Source: Kitasatospora cineracea
Lineage (GTDB): Bacteria > Actinomycetota > Actinomycetes > Streptomycetales > Streptomycetaceae
DNA length: 64,000 bases
Reading direction: 5' to 3'
NCBI RefSeq assembly: GCF_003751605.1
Contig: NZ_RJVJ01000001.1
Location: forward strand, 2,852,001 to 2,916,000
Part shown: one piece after another, positions 12,925 through 44,678 of the stretch
Layout: each line of letters begins with the position of its first letter
Position numbering within the stretch: position 1 is the first letter of the stretch
Translations under genes and position numbers: made by a program
Notes under the pieces: model-generated
Databases searched by the model: none
Seen by the model: the letters and a program-made list of their open reading frames with translations, nothing else
Told to the model about the DNA's origin: nothing

Positions 12925-13914
12925 ATGACGGAGCGCACGCTCGGAGCGCTGGCCAGCTCGCCGATCGGGTTCGGGGCGATGGTGCTCTCGCCCGGCATGT
13001 ACGGCGAGATCGACGAACGGCGCGGACAGGACGCGCTGCGGGCCGCGATCGACGCCGGGGCCCGGCTGATCGACACCGCCGACGGCTACGGCGCGGACGG
13101 GCACAACGAACAGCTGATCGGCCGGGCCGTCGCGGGGCGCCGGGACGAGGTGGTGCTCGCCACGAAGTTCGGCTTCCGGGTGCCGGACGGCGCCGAGGCG
13201 CACCGCTTCCCGGTGAACTTCGCGTTCGGCGAGCTCGCGGTCAACTGCGAGCCGAAGCACGTCCGGGGCTACGCGGAGCAGTCGCTGCGCAACCTCGGCA
13301 CCGACGTGATCGACCTGTACTACCCGCACTTCCCGGACCCGCAGGTGCCGTTCGAGGACACCGTCGGCGCGGTCGCCGAGCTGGTCGCCGACGGGCTGGT
13401 CCGGCACCTGGGCGTCTCCAACGTGACGGCCGCGCAGCTGCGCGCCGCGCACGCGGTGCACCCGGTGGCGGCGGTGCAGACCCAGTGGTCGATGTGGCAG
13501 CCGATCGACCCGGAACTACTGGCCGCCGCCCGCGAACTGGGCGTCGGCGTGGTGGCCTGGGGCCCGCTCGGCGGCGGCTTCCTGACCGGCACCGTGCAGC
13601 AGGTCGCCGAGGGCGACTTCCGGCAGCACCAGGCCAGGTTCTCGGCCGAGAACCTGGCCGCCAACAACGACCGGTACGCCCCGCTGCGGGCGATCGCCGC
13701 GGAACTCGGCGTCACCCCCGGCCAACTGGCGCTGGCCTGGCTGCTGCACCGGGACGAGCACGTGGTGCCGATCCCCGGCAGCCGGACCCCGGCGCACATC
13801 GCGGAGAACCAGGCCGCTGCGGAACTGGCGCTGGACGCGGCGGTGCTGGGCCGGATCGACGCGGCGCTCGCCGCGTTCGCGCCGGCGGGCGAGGGGGCGC
13901 TGCTCAGGGACTGA
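12925..13914 (+). CDS. Aldo/keto reductase
   Basis: A 329-residue NADPH-dependent oxidoreductase of the AKR TIM-barrel fold. Visible family motifs are IDTADGYGADGHNEQLIG (catalytic Asp and Tyr), KFGF (catalytic Lys), DVIDLYYPHFPDP, LVRHLGVSNVTAAQLR, and VVPIPGSRTPAHIAENQAA (NADPH phosphate site). ATG 12925 is chosen over an upstream in-frame TTG at 12892 because GGAGGGGG lies at 12910-12917. Substrate unknown. Confidence 0.93.
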   Translation: MTERTLGALASSPIGFGAMVLSPGMYGEIDERRGQDALRAAIDAGARLIDTADGYGADGHNEQLIGRAVAGRRDEVVLATKFGFRVPDGAEAHRFPVNFAFGELAVNCEPKHVRGYAEQSLRNLGTDVIDLYYPHFPDPQVPFEDTVGAVAELVADGLVRHLGVSNVTAAQLRAAHAVHPVAAVQTQWSMWQPIDPELLAAARELGVGVVAWGPLGGGFLTGTVQQVAEGDFRQHQARFSAENLAANNDRYAPLRAIAAELGVTPGQLALAWLLHRDEHVVPIPGSRTPAHIAENQAAAELALDAAVLGRIDAALAAFAPAGEGALLRD

Positions 13915-21860: not shown

Positions 21861-21898
21861 CGAGGGCCCGGATCGGACTGCTCCGATCCGGGCCCTCG
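21861..21898. terminator. Bidirectional terminator between uppS and zur
   Basis: Arms 21861-21877 and 21882-21898 are perfect 17-bp reverse complements with a four-base loop. It lies between convergent genes and can serve both. Confidence 0.9.
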
Positions 21899-31223: not shown

Positions 31224-31724
31224 TCATGCGACCCTCCCCGACTCCTGGTGCTCCACGCCGCAGCACGCCTCCGACAACTGCGCCCAGCGGAACCCCCCGG
31301 TCGCGGAGGCGAACCAGAACCGGCCCACCACCCGCACGGTCGCGGCACCGGTGGCCCGCCGCCGCAGCCCGCCGGTGAGAAAACGCACCGGTGGGGGAGC
31401 CCCGCAGGGTGGCAGCCGGCCCCAGGCGCACGCGACCCGTCCTTCCCCCCGTGCTCCGGCCCTGCCGAGCCGGGCTCCGCGCAACCCGGCGCCACCGAGC
31501 GAGGACTCGACCACGACATCGAGCAGTTCGCCGTGCTCGTAGACCTCCATGGCCGGTCGGCGGCCCGCCCGCAGCCGCACCGACCACGGGCCGACCTCGG
31601 CGACCTTCCCCAACTCGTCTTCGGTGCAGGGCAGTTCGTGATCGACGTCGGAGAACTGGGAGGCTGCCGCCCGAGCGGGGGCGAGCGGACCGCGGACACA
31701 GCGCATCAGGTTCGTATTCGTCAT
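31224..31724 (-). CDS. Hypothetical protein divergent from the two-component operon
   Basis: A 166-residue protein starting at ATG 31724 with GAAGGA on the minus strand 11 bases away. It has acidic N-terminal (FSDVDHELPCTEDELGKVAEVGPWSVRLRAGRRPAMEVYEHGELLDVVVESS) and a C-terminal half with several cysteines; I recognise no family. The stop overlaps an ATG (31226-31228) of the damaged membrane-protein frame by the usual ATGA. It is transcribed away from the histidine kinase gene and shares the palindrome-bearing intergenic region. Confidence 0.6.
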   Translation of the reverse strand: MTNTNLMRCVRGPLAPARAAASQFSDVDHELPCTEDELGKVAEVGPWSVRLRAGRRPAMEVYEHGELLDVVVESSLGGAGLRGARLGRAGARGEGRVACAWGRLPPCGAPPPVRFLTGGLRRRATGAATVRVVGRFWFASATGGFRWAQLSEACCGVEHQESGRVA

Positions 31725-31772
31725 GCCGTCAAGAATCCTTCGGCGGAAGGATCTTGTCGGTAGCGCGCGGTC

Positions 31773-31810
31773 CCGTCTTTGGGGTGTAGCCAGCTACACC
31801 CCAAAGACGG
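31773..31810. promoter_or_regulatory. 38-bp near-perfect palindrome between divergent genes
   Basis: CCGTCTTTGGGGTGTAGC at 31773-31790, CA, then GCTACACCCCAAAGACGG at 31793-31810: 18 perfect pairs around a 2-base centre. It lies 49 bases from both the minus-strand ATG (31724) and the histidine kinase ATG (31860), so it is almost exactly central. Genes diverge, so a terminator role is unlikely; a shared operator, perhaps for the response regulator encoded next, is the simplest reading. Confidence 0.7.
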
Positions 31811-31859
31811 AGGCCCATGCCATGGAAGCCGAGATCGGACGGCCTCTACGCTGATCCGC

Positions 31860-33149
31860 ATGTTCCAGTCGAAGATCGACACGCCCCCGCGCCGGGCGGC
31901 CGGAGCCACCACGGCCCGGGCCGTCGAGGCCCGGGCCGCCACGGTTCGCGCCGCCGTGTCCGCGCGCACGCCGTGGTCCGCGGGCACGCGGCGGGATTCG
32001 CTCTTCCTGGCTGCCGGCCTTCCGTTCGGCCTGCCCTGCATGATCGTCCTCAACCTTCCGGGCGGCGCCCTGCTGCCGGGGCTGGCCCTGCTCGTGGTCC
32101 TCTTCGACCTGCTGACGGTCGCCCAGCGCAGCCGGGTCCGCGCCCTGCGCGGGCTGGAGATCCCGGGCCGGGTCCCGCCGGGCGCGCCGTGGCTGGTCCG
32201 ACTCCTCGCGGGGCTGACGTGGCGCCAGGCCGCCCACCACCTGCTGGTGGCCCCGTTGCAGACCATGTGCGCCGCCCTGGTGCTCGGCCTCTGGGGAACG
32301 TCGGCCGTGCTGCTCGGCTTCTTCGGCTGGGTGTGGTTGCTGCCGCCCGACAACCCGCTGCAGGCCGGGCCGGGCTGGGCCGTCACGGGCACCGCCGCGA
32401 CCGTCGGCGGCCTGCTCCTGCTCGTCGCCACGCCCTGGCTGGTCGCCCTGCTCGCCGCTGTCGACCTGTGGGCGGTCCGGATCCTGCTCGGCCCCAACCG
32501 GGCGGAGGTGCTGGAGCTCCGCGTTGAGCACCTGGCCCGGAGCCGGGTCGACGTGGTGGACGCGGCCGACGCCGAACGGCGCCGCATCGAAAGGGACTTG
32601 CACGACGGCGCCCAGCAGCGCCTGGTCTCCCTGGCGATGAACCTGGGCCTGGCCCGGCGCACCCTCAAGCACCTCCCGCCCGAGGCCATGGAGGTGATCG
32701 TCGCCGCGCACGAGGAGGCCCAGGCCGCCATCAAGGAACTGCACGACCTGGTCCGCGGCCTGCACCCGGCGGTGCTGGAGGACCGCGGGCTCGACGCGGC
32801 GCTCTCCGGCATCGCCGCCCGCAGCCCCGTCCCCGTGCACCTCACGGTCGACCTGCCGGGCCGCATAGCGCCCACCGTGGAGGCGGTCGCCTACTTCACG
32901 GTCTCCGAGGCGCTGGCCAACGCCGCCAAGCACTCCCGGGCCTCCCGGGTCGACCTCGCCCTGCACCGGGCGGCCGACCGGCTGCGCATCACCATCACCG
33001 ACGACGGCATCGGCGGGGCGGACGCCGGCCGTGGCAGCGGCCTCGCCGGCCTGCGCAAACGCGCCGCCTCGGTCGACGGATCGTTCGCCATCACCAGCCC
33101 CCGCGGGGGCCCGACCACCATCACCATGGAGCTGCCATGCGAGCTGTGA
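31860..33149 (+). CDS. Sensor histidine kinase, NarL/HisKA_3 class
   Basis: A 429-residue membrane kinase. Residues 45-225 hold four to five hydrophobic segments (SLFLAAGLPFGLPCMIVLNL, LLPGLALLVVLFDLL, AALVLGLWGTSAVLLGFFGWVWLL, TVGGLLLLVATPWLVALLAAVDLW). HisKA_3 follows with RRRIERDLHDGAQQRLVSLAMNLGLARR (phospho-acceptor His), then the HATPase with EALANAAKHSRASRV and DDGIGGADAGRGSGLAGLRKR. ATG 31860 has no ribosome site and may be leaderless; TACGCT at 31847-31852 could be a -10. It overlaps the regulator gene by 13 bases. Signal unknown. Confidence 0.9.
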   Translation: MFQSKIDTPPRRAAGATTARAVEARAATVRAAVSARTPWSAGTRRDSLFLAAGLPFGLPCMIVLNLPGGALLPGLALLVVLFDLLTVAQRSRVRALRGLEIPGRVPPGAPWLVRLLAGLTWRQAAHHLLVAPLQTMCAALVLGLWGTSAVLLGFFGWVWLLPPDNPLQAGPGWAVTGTAATVGGLLLLVATPWLVALLAAVDLWAVRILLGPNRAEVLELRVEHLARSRVDVVDAADAERRRIERDLHDGAQQRLVSLAMNLGLARRTLKHLPPEAMEVIVAAHEEAQAAIKELHDLVRGLHPAVLEDRGLDAALSGIAARSPVPVHLTVDLPGRIAPTVEAVAYFTVSEALANAAKHSRASRVDLALHRAADRLRITITDDGIGGADAGRGSGLAGLRKRAASVDGSFAITSPRGGPTTITMELPCEL

Positions 33150-33784
33150 TCGCCGAGGACTCGGTCCTCCTGAGGATCGGCATCGTCAAGGTGCTGGAGA
33201 GCGAGGGCTACGAGGTCGCCGCCGCGGTGGGGGACGCCGAGGCGCTGCTCGCCGCCGTCGAGGAGCACCGCCCGCAGATCGTCGTCGCGGACGTCCGGAT
33301 GCCCCCGGGGTTCACGGACGAGGGCGTCCGGGCCGCGCTGATGATCCGCCAGCAGTGGCCCGACACCGCGGTCGTCCTGCTCTCCCAGTTCGTCGAGGAG
33401 CGCTACGCGGCGGACTTGCTGGCCAAGAACACCAGCGGCGTCGGCTACCTGCTCAAACAGCGGGTGGCGAACGTGGACGAGTTCGTGGAGGCGCTGCAGC
33501 GGGTGGCCGGGGGCGGCACCGCCCTCGACCCCGAGGTGGTCGCCCAACTGCTGCTGCGCCGCGACCGCGATCCGCTGCACCGGCTGACGCCCCGCGAGCG
33601 GGACGTGTTGGCGCTGATGGCCGAGGGCCGCTCGAACACCGCGATCGCCGAATCCCTGGTGGTCAGCGACAGCGCCGTCTCCAAGCACATCAACTCCATC
33701 CTCACCAAGCTCGACCTGCCACCCGCCGAGGACACCCACCGGCGGGTGCTCGCGGTGCTGCGCTTCCTGGAGGTCAGCCAATGA
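33137..33784 (+). CDS. LuxR/NarL-type response regulator
   Basis: A 215-residue response regulator. The receiver has acidic EDS (Glu7-Asp8), phospho-acceptor Asp52 in VVADVRMPP, conserved Ser in LLSQF and Lys in YLLKQ. The C-terminal helix-turn-helix is LTPRERDVLALMAEGRSNTAIAESLVVSDSAVSKHINSILTKLDL. It is partnered with the upstream kinase. The palindrome before the kinase gene is a candidate target. Confidence 0.93.
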   Translation: MRAVIAEDSVLLRIGIVKVLESEGYEVAAAVGDAEALLAAVEEHRPQIVVADVRMPPGFTDEGVRAALMIRQQWPDTAVVLLSQFVEERYAADLLAKNTSGVGYLLKQRVANVDEFVEALQRVAGGGTALDPEVVAQLLLRRDRDPLHRLTPRERDVLALMAEGRSNTAIAESLVVSDSAVSKHINSILTKLDLPPAEDTHRRVLAVLRFLEVSQ

Positions 33785-34662
33785 CGCGACCCGCCCCGCC
33801 GGAGCCGCCGACGGTTCCCGCGCCGGGCCGACTCGCCCGTCGGCTGCCGGCCCCGTGGCCGCCGGGCCCGCCCGCCGAACCGAGCCCCGGCGAGCGCCGG
33901 GCCTGGCGGCTCATCGGCGCGCTCGCCCTGGTCTGCGTCCTCCTGGCGGGCGTCGCCGTCACGGGGGCGGCCCTCATCCAGCGGGACACCGCCCGGGAGC
34001 GGACGTACTTCGAGGCGATCGGCCAGCTCGACATCGACTCCGGCCCGGCCCACGTCACCGTCCGGGCCGGCGGCACCGATCGGGTGGTGCTGGTCGAACA
34101 GCTCGGCTGGGCCCTGCGCAGGCCCACGGTCAACGTACGGATCGCCGCGGGCCGGATGTCGATCTCCGTCGACTGCCCGGAGGCCCGGTTCACGGGCGGC
34201 TGCCCGGTCTCCCTGGCCGTCCAGGTCCCGCCGTCGACCATGGTCCACGCCCGCAACGGCTCCGGGCGGACGGAGATCGAAGGCGTGGCGGGCAGCGTCT
34301 CGGCGGAGACCGGCAGCGGCCAGGTCCAGCTGACCGGGATCAGCGGGCCGATCTGGGCGAAGAGCGGCTCCGGGCAGATCATCGGCACGGGGCTGAGCGC
34401 GCCCGAGGCCCAGCTGTCCGCCGCCTCCGGACAGGTCACCCTGCAGTACGACCGCCCACCGGACTTGGTCGCCACCCGCCTCGCCTCGGGAAACCTGCTC
34501 CTGCAACTGCCGGACGACCGCAGCCGGTACCGGATCGACCTCAGCAGCGACGGCGGCAGCCAGACGATCGACCGGTCCCTCCAGGACCTCGACTCGCCAC
34601 GACTGCTCGACGTCATCTCCGCCTCCGGCACCGTCACCATCAACCGGTCCGGAAAGCCCTGA
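33781..34662 (+). CDS. Membrane-anchored DUF4097-like protein
   Basis: A 293-residue protein: Pro-rich cytoplasmic head (1-38), one membrane segment (about 43-66, LIGALALVCVLLAGVAVTGAALI), and an external repetitive beta domain with Gly/Ser repeats (ARNGSGRTEIEGVAGSVSAETGSGQVQLTGISGPIWAKSGSGQIIGTGL) like the DUF4097 beta-helix adhesin-type domain. Its ATG overlaps the regulator stop by four bases, so the kinase-regulator-DUF4097 trio is one operon, a frequent Streptomyces arrangement. Possibly the output or a cell-envelope co-sensor. Confidence 0.8.
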   Translation: MTRPAPPEPPTVPAPGRLARRLPAPWPPGPPAEPSPGERRAWRLIGALALVCVLLAGVAVTGAALIQRDTARERTYFEAIGQLDIDSGPAHVTVRAGGTDRVVLVEQLGWALRRPTVNVRIAAGRMSISVDCPEARFTGGCPVSLAVQVPPSTMVHARNGSGRTEIEGVAGSVSAETGSGQVQLTGISGPIWAKSGSGQIIGTGLSAPEAQLSAASGQVTLQYDRPPDLVATRLASGNLLLQLPDDRSRYRIDLSSDGGSQTIDRSLQDLDSPRLLDVISASGTVTINRSGKP

Positions 34663-43630: not shown

Positions 43631-44581
43631 GTGCGCCACCGGAGGAGGGCCGCCGCGGCGGCCCTGATCGGGGCCGCCCTGATCGGCACCGCCGGGTGCG
43701 GCGCGGGGAAGGCATCCCCGGCCCCGCAGCCCGACCGGGCCTCGCCGACGCCCTCCACCACCCCGGTCACCGGCCCGTACGTCGCACTGGGCGACTCCTA
43801 CACCGCCGGCCTGCGGATCCCGCCCCAGGGCGGAGCCCCGCAGGGCTGCGGCCGCTCGGGCGTCAACTACCCGTCCCTGGTGGCCCGGCAGCTCGACCTC
43901 AAGGACTTCACCGACGTCAGCTGCAGCGGCGCGCGCACCGGAGACCTGACGGCCGCCCAGCGCACCGACGACGGCACCAACCCGCCGCAGCTGGCCGCGC
44001 TCGGCGCGGCCACCCGGCTGGTGACGCTCGGGATCGGCGGCAACGACGCAGGCTTCCTCGACGTCCTGGGCCGCTGCGCGGTCGAGAACGTCCGGCACAG
44101 CCTGACCGGCCACGGCGACGCCGCGCCCTGCCGGGCGTACTACACGACCGGCGCCGGGCAGGGCGAGGTCCAGCGGCGGATGACGGACACCGGCGAGCGG
44201 CTCACCGCGGCGCTCGACGAGGTCAGACGGCGGGCCCCGCAGGCCAGGGTGCTGCTCGTCGGATACCCGGCCCTGCTGCCGCAGGACCCGACTCTCTGCG
44301 CCGAGACCCTGGGCGACGGGATCGCGGGCGCCGACATCGGCTTCGTCGTCGAACAGGAGCGGCAGCTGAACGCCATGCTCCGGCAGCGGGCCGAGGCCGC
44401 CGGGGCGGCCTTCGTCGACACCTACGCCCCGTCCACCGGGCACGACATGTGCGAGGCCGCCGGCACCCGCTGGATAGAGCCCCTCGCCGCCGGGCAGGGG
44501 CTGGCCCCGATCCACCCGAACGCCCAGGGGCAGCAGGGCATGGCCGCCGCCGTCCTGGCCGCGCTCGGGCAGCAGCACTGA
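43631..44581 (+). CDS. SGNH/GDSL hydrolase lipoprotein
   Basis: A 316-residue secreted esterase or lipase. Signal peptide with lipobox LIGTAGC (Cys23); block I YVALGDSYTAGL (Ser56), a Gly in SGARTGDL, block III GIGGNDAGF and block V IHPNAQG with the catalytic His. Six or more cysteines suggest disulfides, as in Streptomyces SGNH lipases. GTG 43631 abuts the PAC2 stop, so translation is coupled. Substrate unknown. Confidence 0.9.
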   Translation: MRHRRRAAAAALIGAALIGTAGCGAGKASPAPQPDRASPTPSTTPVTGPYVALGDSYTAGLRIPPQGGAPQGCGRSGVNYPSLVARQLDLKDFTDVSCSGARTGDLTAAQRTDDGTNPPQLAALGAATRLVTLGIGGNDAGFLDVLGRCAVENVRHSLTGHGDAAPCRAYYTTGAGQGEVQRRMTDTGERLTAALDEVRRRAPQARVLLVGYPALLPQDPTLCAETLGDGIAGADIGFVVEQERQLNAMLRQRAEAAGAAFVDTYAPSTGHDMCEAAGTRWIEPLAAGQGLAPIHPNAQGQQGMAAAVLAALGQQH

Positions 44582-44616
44582 CCTCGCCCCCGTCGGCGGG
44601 ACGACGGGGGCGAGGT
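44581..44616. terminator. Bidirectional terminator between lipase and nirD
   Basis: ACCTCGCCCCCGTC at 44581-44594 and GACGGGGGCGAGGT at 44603-44616: perfect 14-bp stem with an 8-base loop between convergent genes. Confidence 0.9.
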
Positions 44617-44678
44617 CGGGGGACGAGACCTGGGGCGGGGTCAGCCGGGCGGCACGCCGGACCGGGCAGTCCGCCGGA

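Follow-up and report, generated by a model that had tools for sequence, protein, structure and literature searches.

Operators of response regulators of the NarL/LuxR (GerE) type are built as 7-2-7 inverted heptamers. Long inverted repeats have a mutational side as well. One report describes how template switching at quasipalindromes in Escherichia coli perfects imperfect inverted repeats, with both arms changing together (PMC7202029), and another proposes that template switching creates and maintains RNA hairpins (PMC8794818). The locus described here, a palindrome between a two-component operon and a divergent small gene of Kitasatospora cineracea, touches both subjects. It was analyzed within a window, the whole 64-kb stretch of DNA given above, and compared with orthologous loci of the same genus and of other genera.

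Structure and copy number of the palindrome

The palindrome occupies positions 31773-31810 of the window. It is 38 bp long and perfect, with two 18-nt arms that are 100% complementary and a 2-nt centre, CA. The original prediction had described 18 pairs around a two-base centre, and every one of the 18 pairs is indeed perfect. The distance of 49 bases to each start codon, which was part of the same description, is correct for the plus side, where 49 bases separate the palindrome from the ATG at 31860, but is off by one base for the minus side, where there are 48 bases to the ATG at 31724. The positions of the palindrome, its parts and the surrounding features are collected in Table 1.

No other perfect arms in the window are as long when loops of 0 to 8 nt are compared, and base composition alone predicts 3e-4 sites with arms of at least 18 in a sequence of this size. 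The runners-up have 17-bp arms with a loop of 4 (21861-21898) and 16-bp arms with a loop of 6 (44580-44617). A loop-free palindrome with 14-bp arms is found at 13632-13659.

The core of the palindrome, GGTGTAGCNNGCTACACC, has one perfect site in the 8.76-Mb genome. Allowing up to two mismatches adds just two further places, and the looser form GGGGTG-N10-CACCCC occurs at three places in the same genome. Many copies near the ends of genes had been named beforehand as the finding that would turn the palindrome into a terminator-like repeat, and the core is single-copy. A terminator or a mobile repeat is suggested by the length of the hairpin-forming repeat, but is extremely improbable in view of the single copy, the location between two divergent start codons and the conservation of this position over genera. 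Furthermore, no T-run is present in the sequence beside either arm, so that the combination of a hairpin and a T-run at a gene end, which defines an intrinsic terminator, is absent. Dispersed repeats of the REP, ERIC or MITE type have many genomic copies, in contrast to the one copy of the core. The terminator was rejected on the missing T-run and the dispersed repeat on the copy number.

Table 1. Coordinates of the palindrome, its flanking genes and the predicted promoter elements in the window
Feature	Position	Strand	Remarks
Palindrome arms	31773-31790 and 31793-31810		CCGTCTTTGGGGTGTAGC-CA-GCTACACCCCAAAGACGG
22-bp core GGGGTGTAGCCAGCTACACCCC	31781..31802		Form conserved at orthologous kinase promoters
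Inner 7-2-7 inverted heptamers GTGTAGC-CA-GCTACAC	31784..31799		Putative site of a response-regulator dimer
Outer arm, divergent-promoter side	31773..31780	-	Reads AAAGACGG on the minus strand
Outer arm, kinase side	31803..31810	+	AAAGACGG, exact mirror of the left arm
Predicted -10 TACGCT, kinase operon	31847..31852	+	7 nt before the ATG, putatively leaderless
Predicted -35 CCGACA, divergent gene	31755..31760	-	From sequence and conserved geometry
Predicted -10 GATTCT, divergent gene	31732..31737	-	17-bp spacer, 7 nt before the ATG
Divergent small protein (GPWSVR...MEVYEHGELLDV)	31224..31724	-	No Pfam or NCBIfam match
Sensor histidine kinase	31860..33149	+	HisKA_3 (PF07730), HATPase_c (PF02518), PF13796 Sensor
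Response regulator, putative operator ligand	33137..33784	+	Receiver and GerE/LuxR HTH
DUF4097 protein frame, likely third operon gene	33778..34662	+	Start position provisional

Flanking genes

The response-regulator gene overlaps the end of the kinase gene, and its product contains a receiver domain (PF00072, 3.2e-15) and a GerE domain (PF00196, 1.7e-12). In the closest named relatives, represented by records of Kitasatospora griseola and K. phosalacinea, the regulator is 97-99% identical. The divergent small protein is conserved, being 47% identical over 102 amino acids to the protein in the same place in another locus (L121). The divergent frame of many Streptomyces loci codes instead for what is, judged by eye, a small hydrophobic protein. 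Pfam gives no match for a same-order counterpart from L131. A hydrophobic frame that resembles this Streptomyces protein by eye is present in the window downstream of the divergent gene (31150-30700, minus strand). It has no ATG, GTG or TTG in the 45 codons that precede its first hydrophobic segment, and is possibly frame shifted.

Promoter geometry

The 80 best loci with an orthologue of the regulator were fetched and 79 were examined, L033 having no upstream region. The set of 63 other loci that was compared with Kitasatospora leaves out L033, L074 (at a contig edge) and L026 (misaligned). For Kitasatospora itself, 62 of 64 rows (63 fetched plus the window) were used for the tree and the counts; the two that were dropped are L190, which was not oriented, and L240, a 75% paralogue and the sole match of its genome. 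At the cut-off applied, six of the 70 genomes of the genus were without a match.

Upstream of the orthologous kinases lies a core that reads GGGGTG-N10-CACCCC and is flanked by an outer CCG and CGG. Its score is better than the best of 237 shuffled regions in 63 of the 79 loci and is not in the remaining 16. At a looser threshold (24), 75 of the 79 loci pass, compared to 26 of the 237 shuffled regions. The distances from the core to the genes are nearly invariant and more informative than the scores. The motif TAnnnT stands 6-7 nt before the kinase start codon, which is itself 55-57 nt from the core, in all 62 Kitasatospora loci and in 60 of the 63 others, whereas shuffling produces this arrangement in 1.1 and 1.5 loci on average in the two sets, respectively. 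On the divergent side, 54 of the 62 and 53 of the 63 loci have a -35/-10 pair (nYGAC, with NAnnnT 16-18 nt further), compared to 2.0 and 1.6 in shuffles. The kinase promoter has a weak -35.

By this geometry the two promoters appear to be leaderless, and the centre of the operator would be near -68 with respect to each of them, which would be the position of an upstream activator. The predicted starts coincide with the start codons, so the palindrome would be outside both transcripts and neither would carry an arm. This bears on the possibility, raised in the original prediction, of an RNA element. In such a reading the hairpin would be transcribed from one side or from both and would control the gene downstream. 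The RNA fold is very stable (-80.8 kcal/mol for 146 nt, z -6.9) and the arms covary. However, a good RNA fold is to be expected of every perfect DNA palindrome, and covariation would arise just as well at the level of DNA. The kinase -10 boxes, 6-7 nt before the starts, and the divergent -35/-10 pairs place the predicted starts beyond the palindrome. A scan of Rfam produced nothing near a gathering score; its one match was an animal microRNA, mir-750, at 18.9 bits against a gathering score of 60, and an Rfam element was rejected for this reason. The apparently leaderless promoters and the operator position near -68 thus speak against an RNA element, which is very unlikely.

The shared operator that had also been suggested fares much better. 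It is well supported by the fixed geometry relative to two predicted promoters, by the conservation across genera and by the related sites described below. The locus has the components of a NarL/LuxR-type operator: a regulator with receiver and GerE domains is encoded next door, and the inverted half-sites are at a fixed distance from the promoters.

Related sites and paralogous systems

The genome contains 11 regulators that form a tight group with 49-100% identity, the remaining 34 matches being at most 41% identical. The 11 regulators are located in this genome (G000) at C1:2885137, C1:4480581, C2:1529356, C1:828873, C1:5653439, C1:4201529, C2:1843376, C1:5618853, C2:796122, C2:965431 and C1:673933. 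The operator precedes the operon in four of the 11 systems, with position weight matrix (PWM) scores of 40, 22, 23.5 and 19, and is missing in the other seven, where the best score is 3.7; the control, comprising 143,664 positions of the same genome, peaks at 6.4. The matrix was trained on orthologous sites that include the site of the window, so the score of the latter is circular, but the scores of the other three paralogues are not. No clear palindrome precedes the seven operons that lack the operator, and these systems may use other sites. The motif AV[SA]KH in the recognition helix is present in all four regulators with the operator and in none of the seven without it, a correlation that was recognized in retrospect and has little weight on its own.

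A directional form of the site, GGTG-N10-CACC-N3-AAGACGG, has 25 matches at 22 distinct places in the 31 genomes searched, and 14 of these genomes contain it. The reversed pattern, which served as a control, has no matches in the same 31 genomes. Nineteen of the places are non-palindromic. In these the design of the search itself places the arm on the promoter side, and the far side starts with CCG in only three of the 19, which supports directionality. Sites without mismatches in the window's own genome precede an ABC transporter ATPase, a PAF-acetylhydrolase-like protein with a signal-like N-terminus and a HisKA_3 kinase paralogue, and a site with one mismatch precedes another kinase paralogue (HisKA_3/PF13796). 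In relatives, the directional site is also found before an erythromycin-esterase-family protein, TAP-like hydrolases and the divergent genes themselves. The genes were named with a simple frame finder, and Pfam was run on nine of the proteins, two of which, a GPWSVR-like and a hydrophobic divergent protein, had no match. The same frame finder gave no convincing full-length gene after the related site in L118, L120, L126 and L132. In L118 and L120, which belong to same-order genomes, the operator stands before short, apparently truncated ABC-ATPase-like frames.

The site in the window matches the directional pattern with no mismatches on both strands. It can thus be described as two such units placed back to back. 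The idea that the symmetry results solely from serving two promoters was rejected as a full explanation. The arms of L025 pair at 19 of 20 positions and no divergent gene is seen there, so symmetry does not depend on two-way use.

Because the same type of site serves several operons and paralogous kinases, cross-regulation is plausible. The palindrome could then be the operator of a different regulator, for instance a response regulator of a paralogous system or a dimeric repressor encoded elsewhere, the adjacent system being merely a target. This is possible but on balance unlikely, as the core stays with the orthologous kinase-regulator operon in different genera and the recognition-helix motif is common to the four regulators that have the site. 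Since seven of the 11 close paralogues lack the operator, the argument for binding by this very regulator is made from its adjacency and from the helix motif, which was recognized post hoc.

Concerted evolution of the arms

In a group of 17 species that includes the window, the outer arms are paired though their sequence differs from species to species; CCGTCTTTGG, CCGTGTTTTTGG, CCGAATTGATGG, CAGTCTTTGG and CACTGTTGATGG are examples. The group was drawn after the alignment had been seen, and the split that sets it apart from the other species has a support of 99/98. Pairing at six or more of the seven outermost positions is found in all 17 species of the group, compared to three of the 45 on the other side (G050, G057 and G015), of which G050 has fully paired outer arms. 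The G050 locus (L130) also contains a second copy of CCCGTCTTTGG 9 bp outside the palindrome, as if one of the arms had been duplicated. In the 17 species, pairing amounts to 94-100% at positions 12-19 from the centre despite the changes of letters, and surviving single mismatches exist. Two species, G067 and G029, have lost the CCG and CGG boxes on both sides and kept the pairing.

Changes in the arms were counted by parsimony on a tree of the coding region. The 17 species have 11.5 two-sided changes on the same branch, all of them complementary, where 1.4 are expected under independence and 0.4-4.1 are obtained in a control with slid partners. One-sided changes number about 7.5 in the left arm and 9.5 in the right. 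In the other 45 species there are 9.0 two-sided changes, 3.0 of which are complementary, versus 6.0 expected. In one of several equally short reconstructions, the branch on which two adjacent pairs were swapped, GG/CC giving way to TT/AA, is 0.009 substitutions per site long and has a support of 86/61, and single-pair swaps occurred on branches of 0.017 and 0.013 substitutions per site. In the 45 species conservation is higher in the left arm, the one nearest to the divergent promoter, than in the right arm: the frequencies of the commonest letter at positions 16-18 are 0.93, 1.00 and 1.00 on the left and 0.69, 0.93 and 0.38 on the right.

The extra length of the palindrome beyond a normal operator is lineage-specific and evolves in concert. 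In the simplest account, one arm would be functionally constrained and the other repeatedly rewritten from it. The data suggest that the arms are copied by template switching during replication on a quasi-palindromic operator. Template switching would make the arms identical through single multi-base copying events; the comparison of species shows two-sided complementary changes that are in excess and that fall on short branches. Concerted change could also reflect selection on pairing or symmetry, which would lead to a similar table of changes. The data do not distinguish between the two, and the one-sided changes and surviving single mismatches fit both.

One form of such selection would act on the fold itself, the 38 bp extruding a cruciform or binding a structure-reading protein, with the arms changing by compensation. 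The high pairing in spite of letter changes in the 17 species, including the two-sided loss of the CCG/CGG boxes, is what such a fold would produce. However, 42 of the 45 other Kitasatospora loci do not have well-paired outer arms and yet keep the promoter geometry, so that the system as such can do without the fold. Furthermore, if one arm is copied onto the other, swaps on both sides of very short branches can arise without any selection. A selected fold is accordingly an unlikely explanation. A related and slightly more doubtful proposal is that in this group the perfect dyad acts as a topological switch: a cruciform would be extruded under negative supercoiling, and its paired fold would gate both leaderless promoters whatever the letters of the outer arms; both arms would then change together even where the boxes are lost.

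Proposed mechanism

What was established by computation comprises the site and its conservation, the fixed geometry relative to the promoters, the existence of related sites and the concerted changes in the arms. These observations are probably best explained by a two-way operator of the adjacent regulator that activates both promoters and whose arms have been mirrored by template switching. The phosphorylated NarL/LuxR-type regulator would bind the inner 7-2-7 core as a dimer and, from about -68, would activate rather than repress two leaderless promoters. The rightward output would be the regulator's own kinase-regulator operon, and the leftward output the small-protein gene plus whatever follows it. 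The promoter-side AAGACGG box would be part of the directional unit, as it is at the related sites. In the group of Kitasatospora around this species the arms turned into mirror images and have remained so. The most likely cause is that template switching in replication repeatedly perfects the quasi-palindromic operator, one arm serving as the template for the other.

An apparently uncharacterized family of actinobacterial sensors, with 11 systems in this genome, thereby gains a testable operator and promoter geometry, together with a candidate regulon that comprises an ABC transporter, secreted hydrolases and kinase paralogues. The locus would also be a natural case of operator symmetry that is apparently renewed by the mutation process itself. 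If this is true, covariation of arms alone cannot prove a selected fold of RNA or DNA.

Comparison with known systems

Searches with the motif and in the Streptomyces literature, with most subscription journals outside their coverage, found no published description of the operator or the system among the papers listed, judged by title or opening of the abstract. The palindrome is thus a candidate operator type, used in both directions, of an apparently undescribed actinobacterial two-component family. The best NCBIfam matches are to the MadRS and MctRS systems, namely MadR and MctR for the regulator and MctS for the kinase, at scores far below the curated family cut-offs (regulator, 98.7 and 97.7 bits where 300 are required; kinase, 107.9 bits where 700 are required), so the proteins do not belong to these families.

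With the template switching at quasipalindromes described in PMC7202029 and PMC8794818, the locus shares the perfecting of repeats and the joint change of arms. The differences are that the substrate here is a promoter operator and that the process is deduced from a comparison of species instead of a mutation assay.

The kind of operator, NarL/LuxR-type, would be an already known one, and its length and symmetry the variant. Shared features are the regulator with receiver and GerE domains next door, the heptamers 2 bp apart and the geometry of autoregulation. The heptamer of the palindrome, GTGTAGC, presumably differs from that of NarL. Unlike NarL/LuxR operators, the palindrome has outer CCG/CGG boxes at a fixed spacing and fully paired 18-bp arms.
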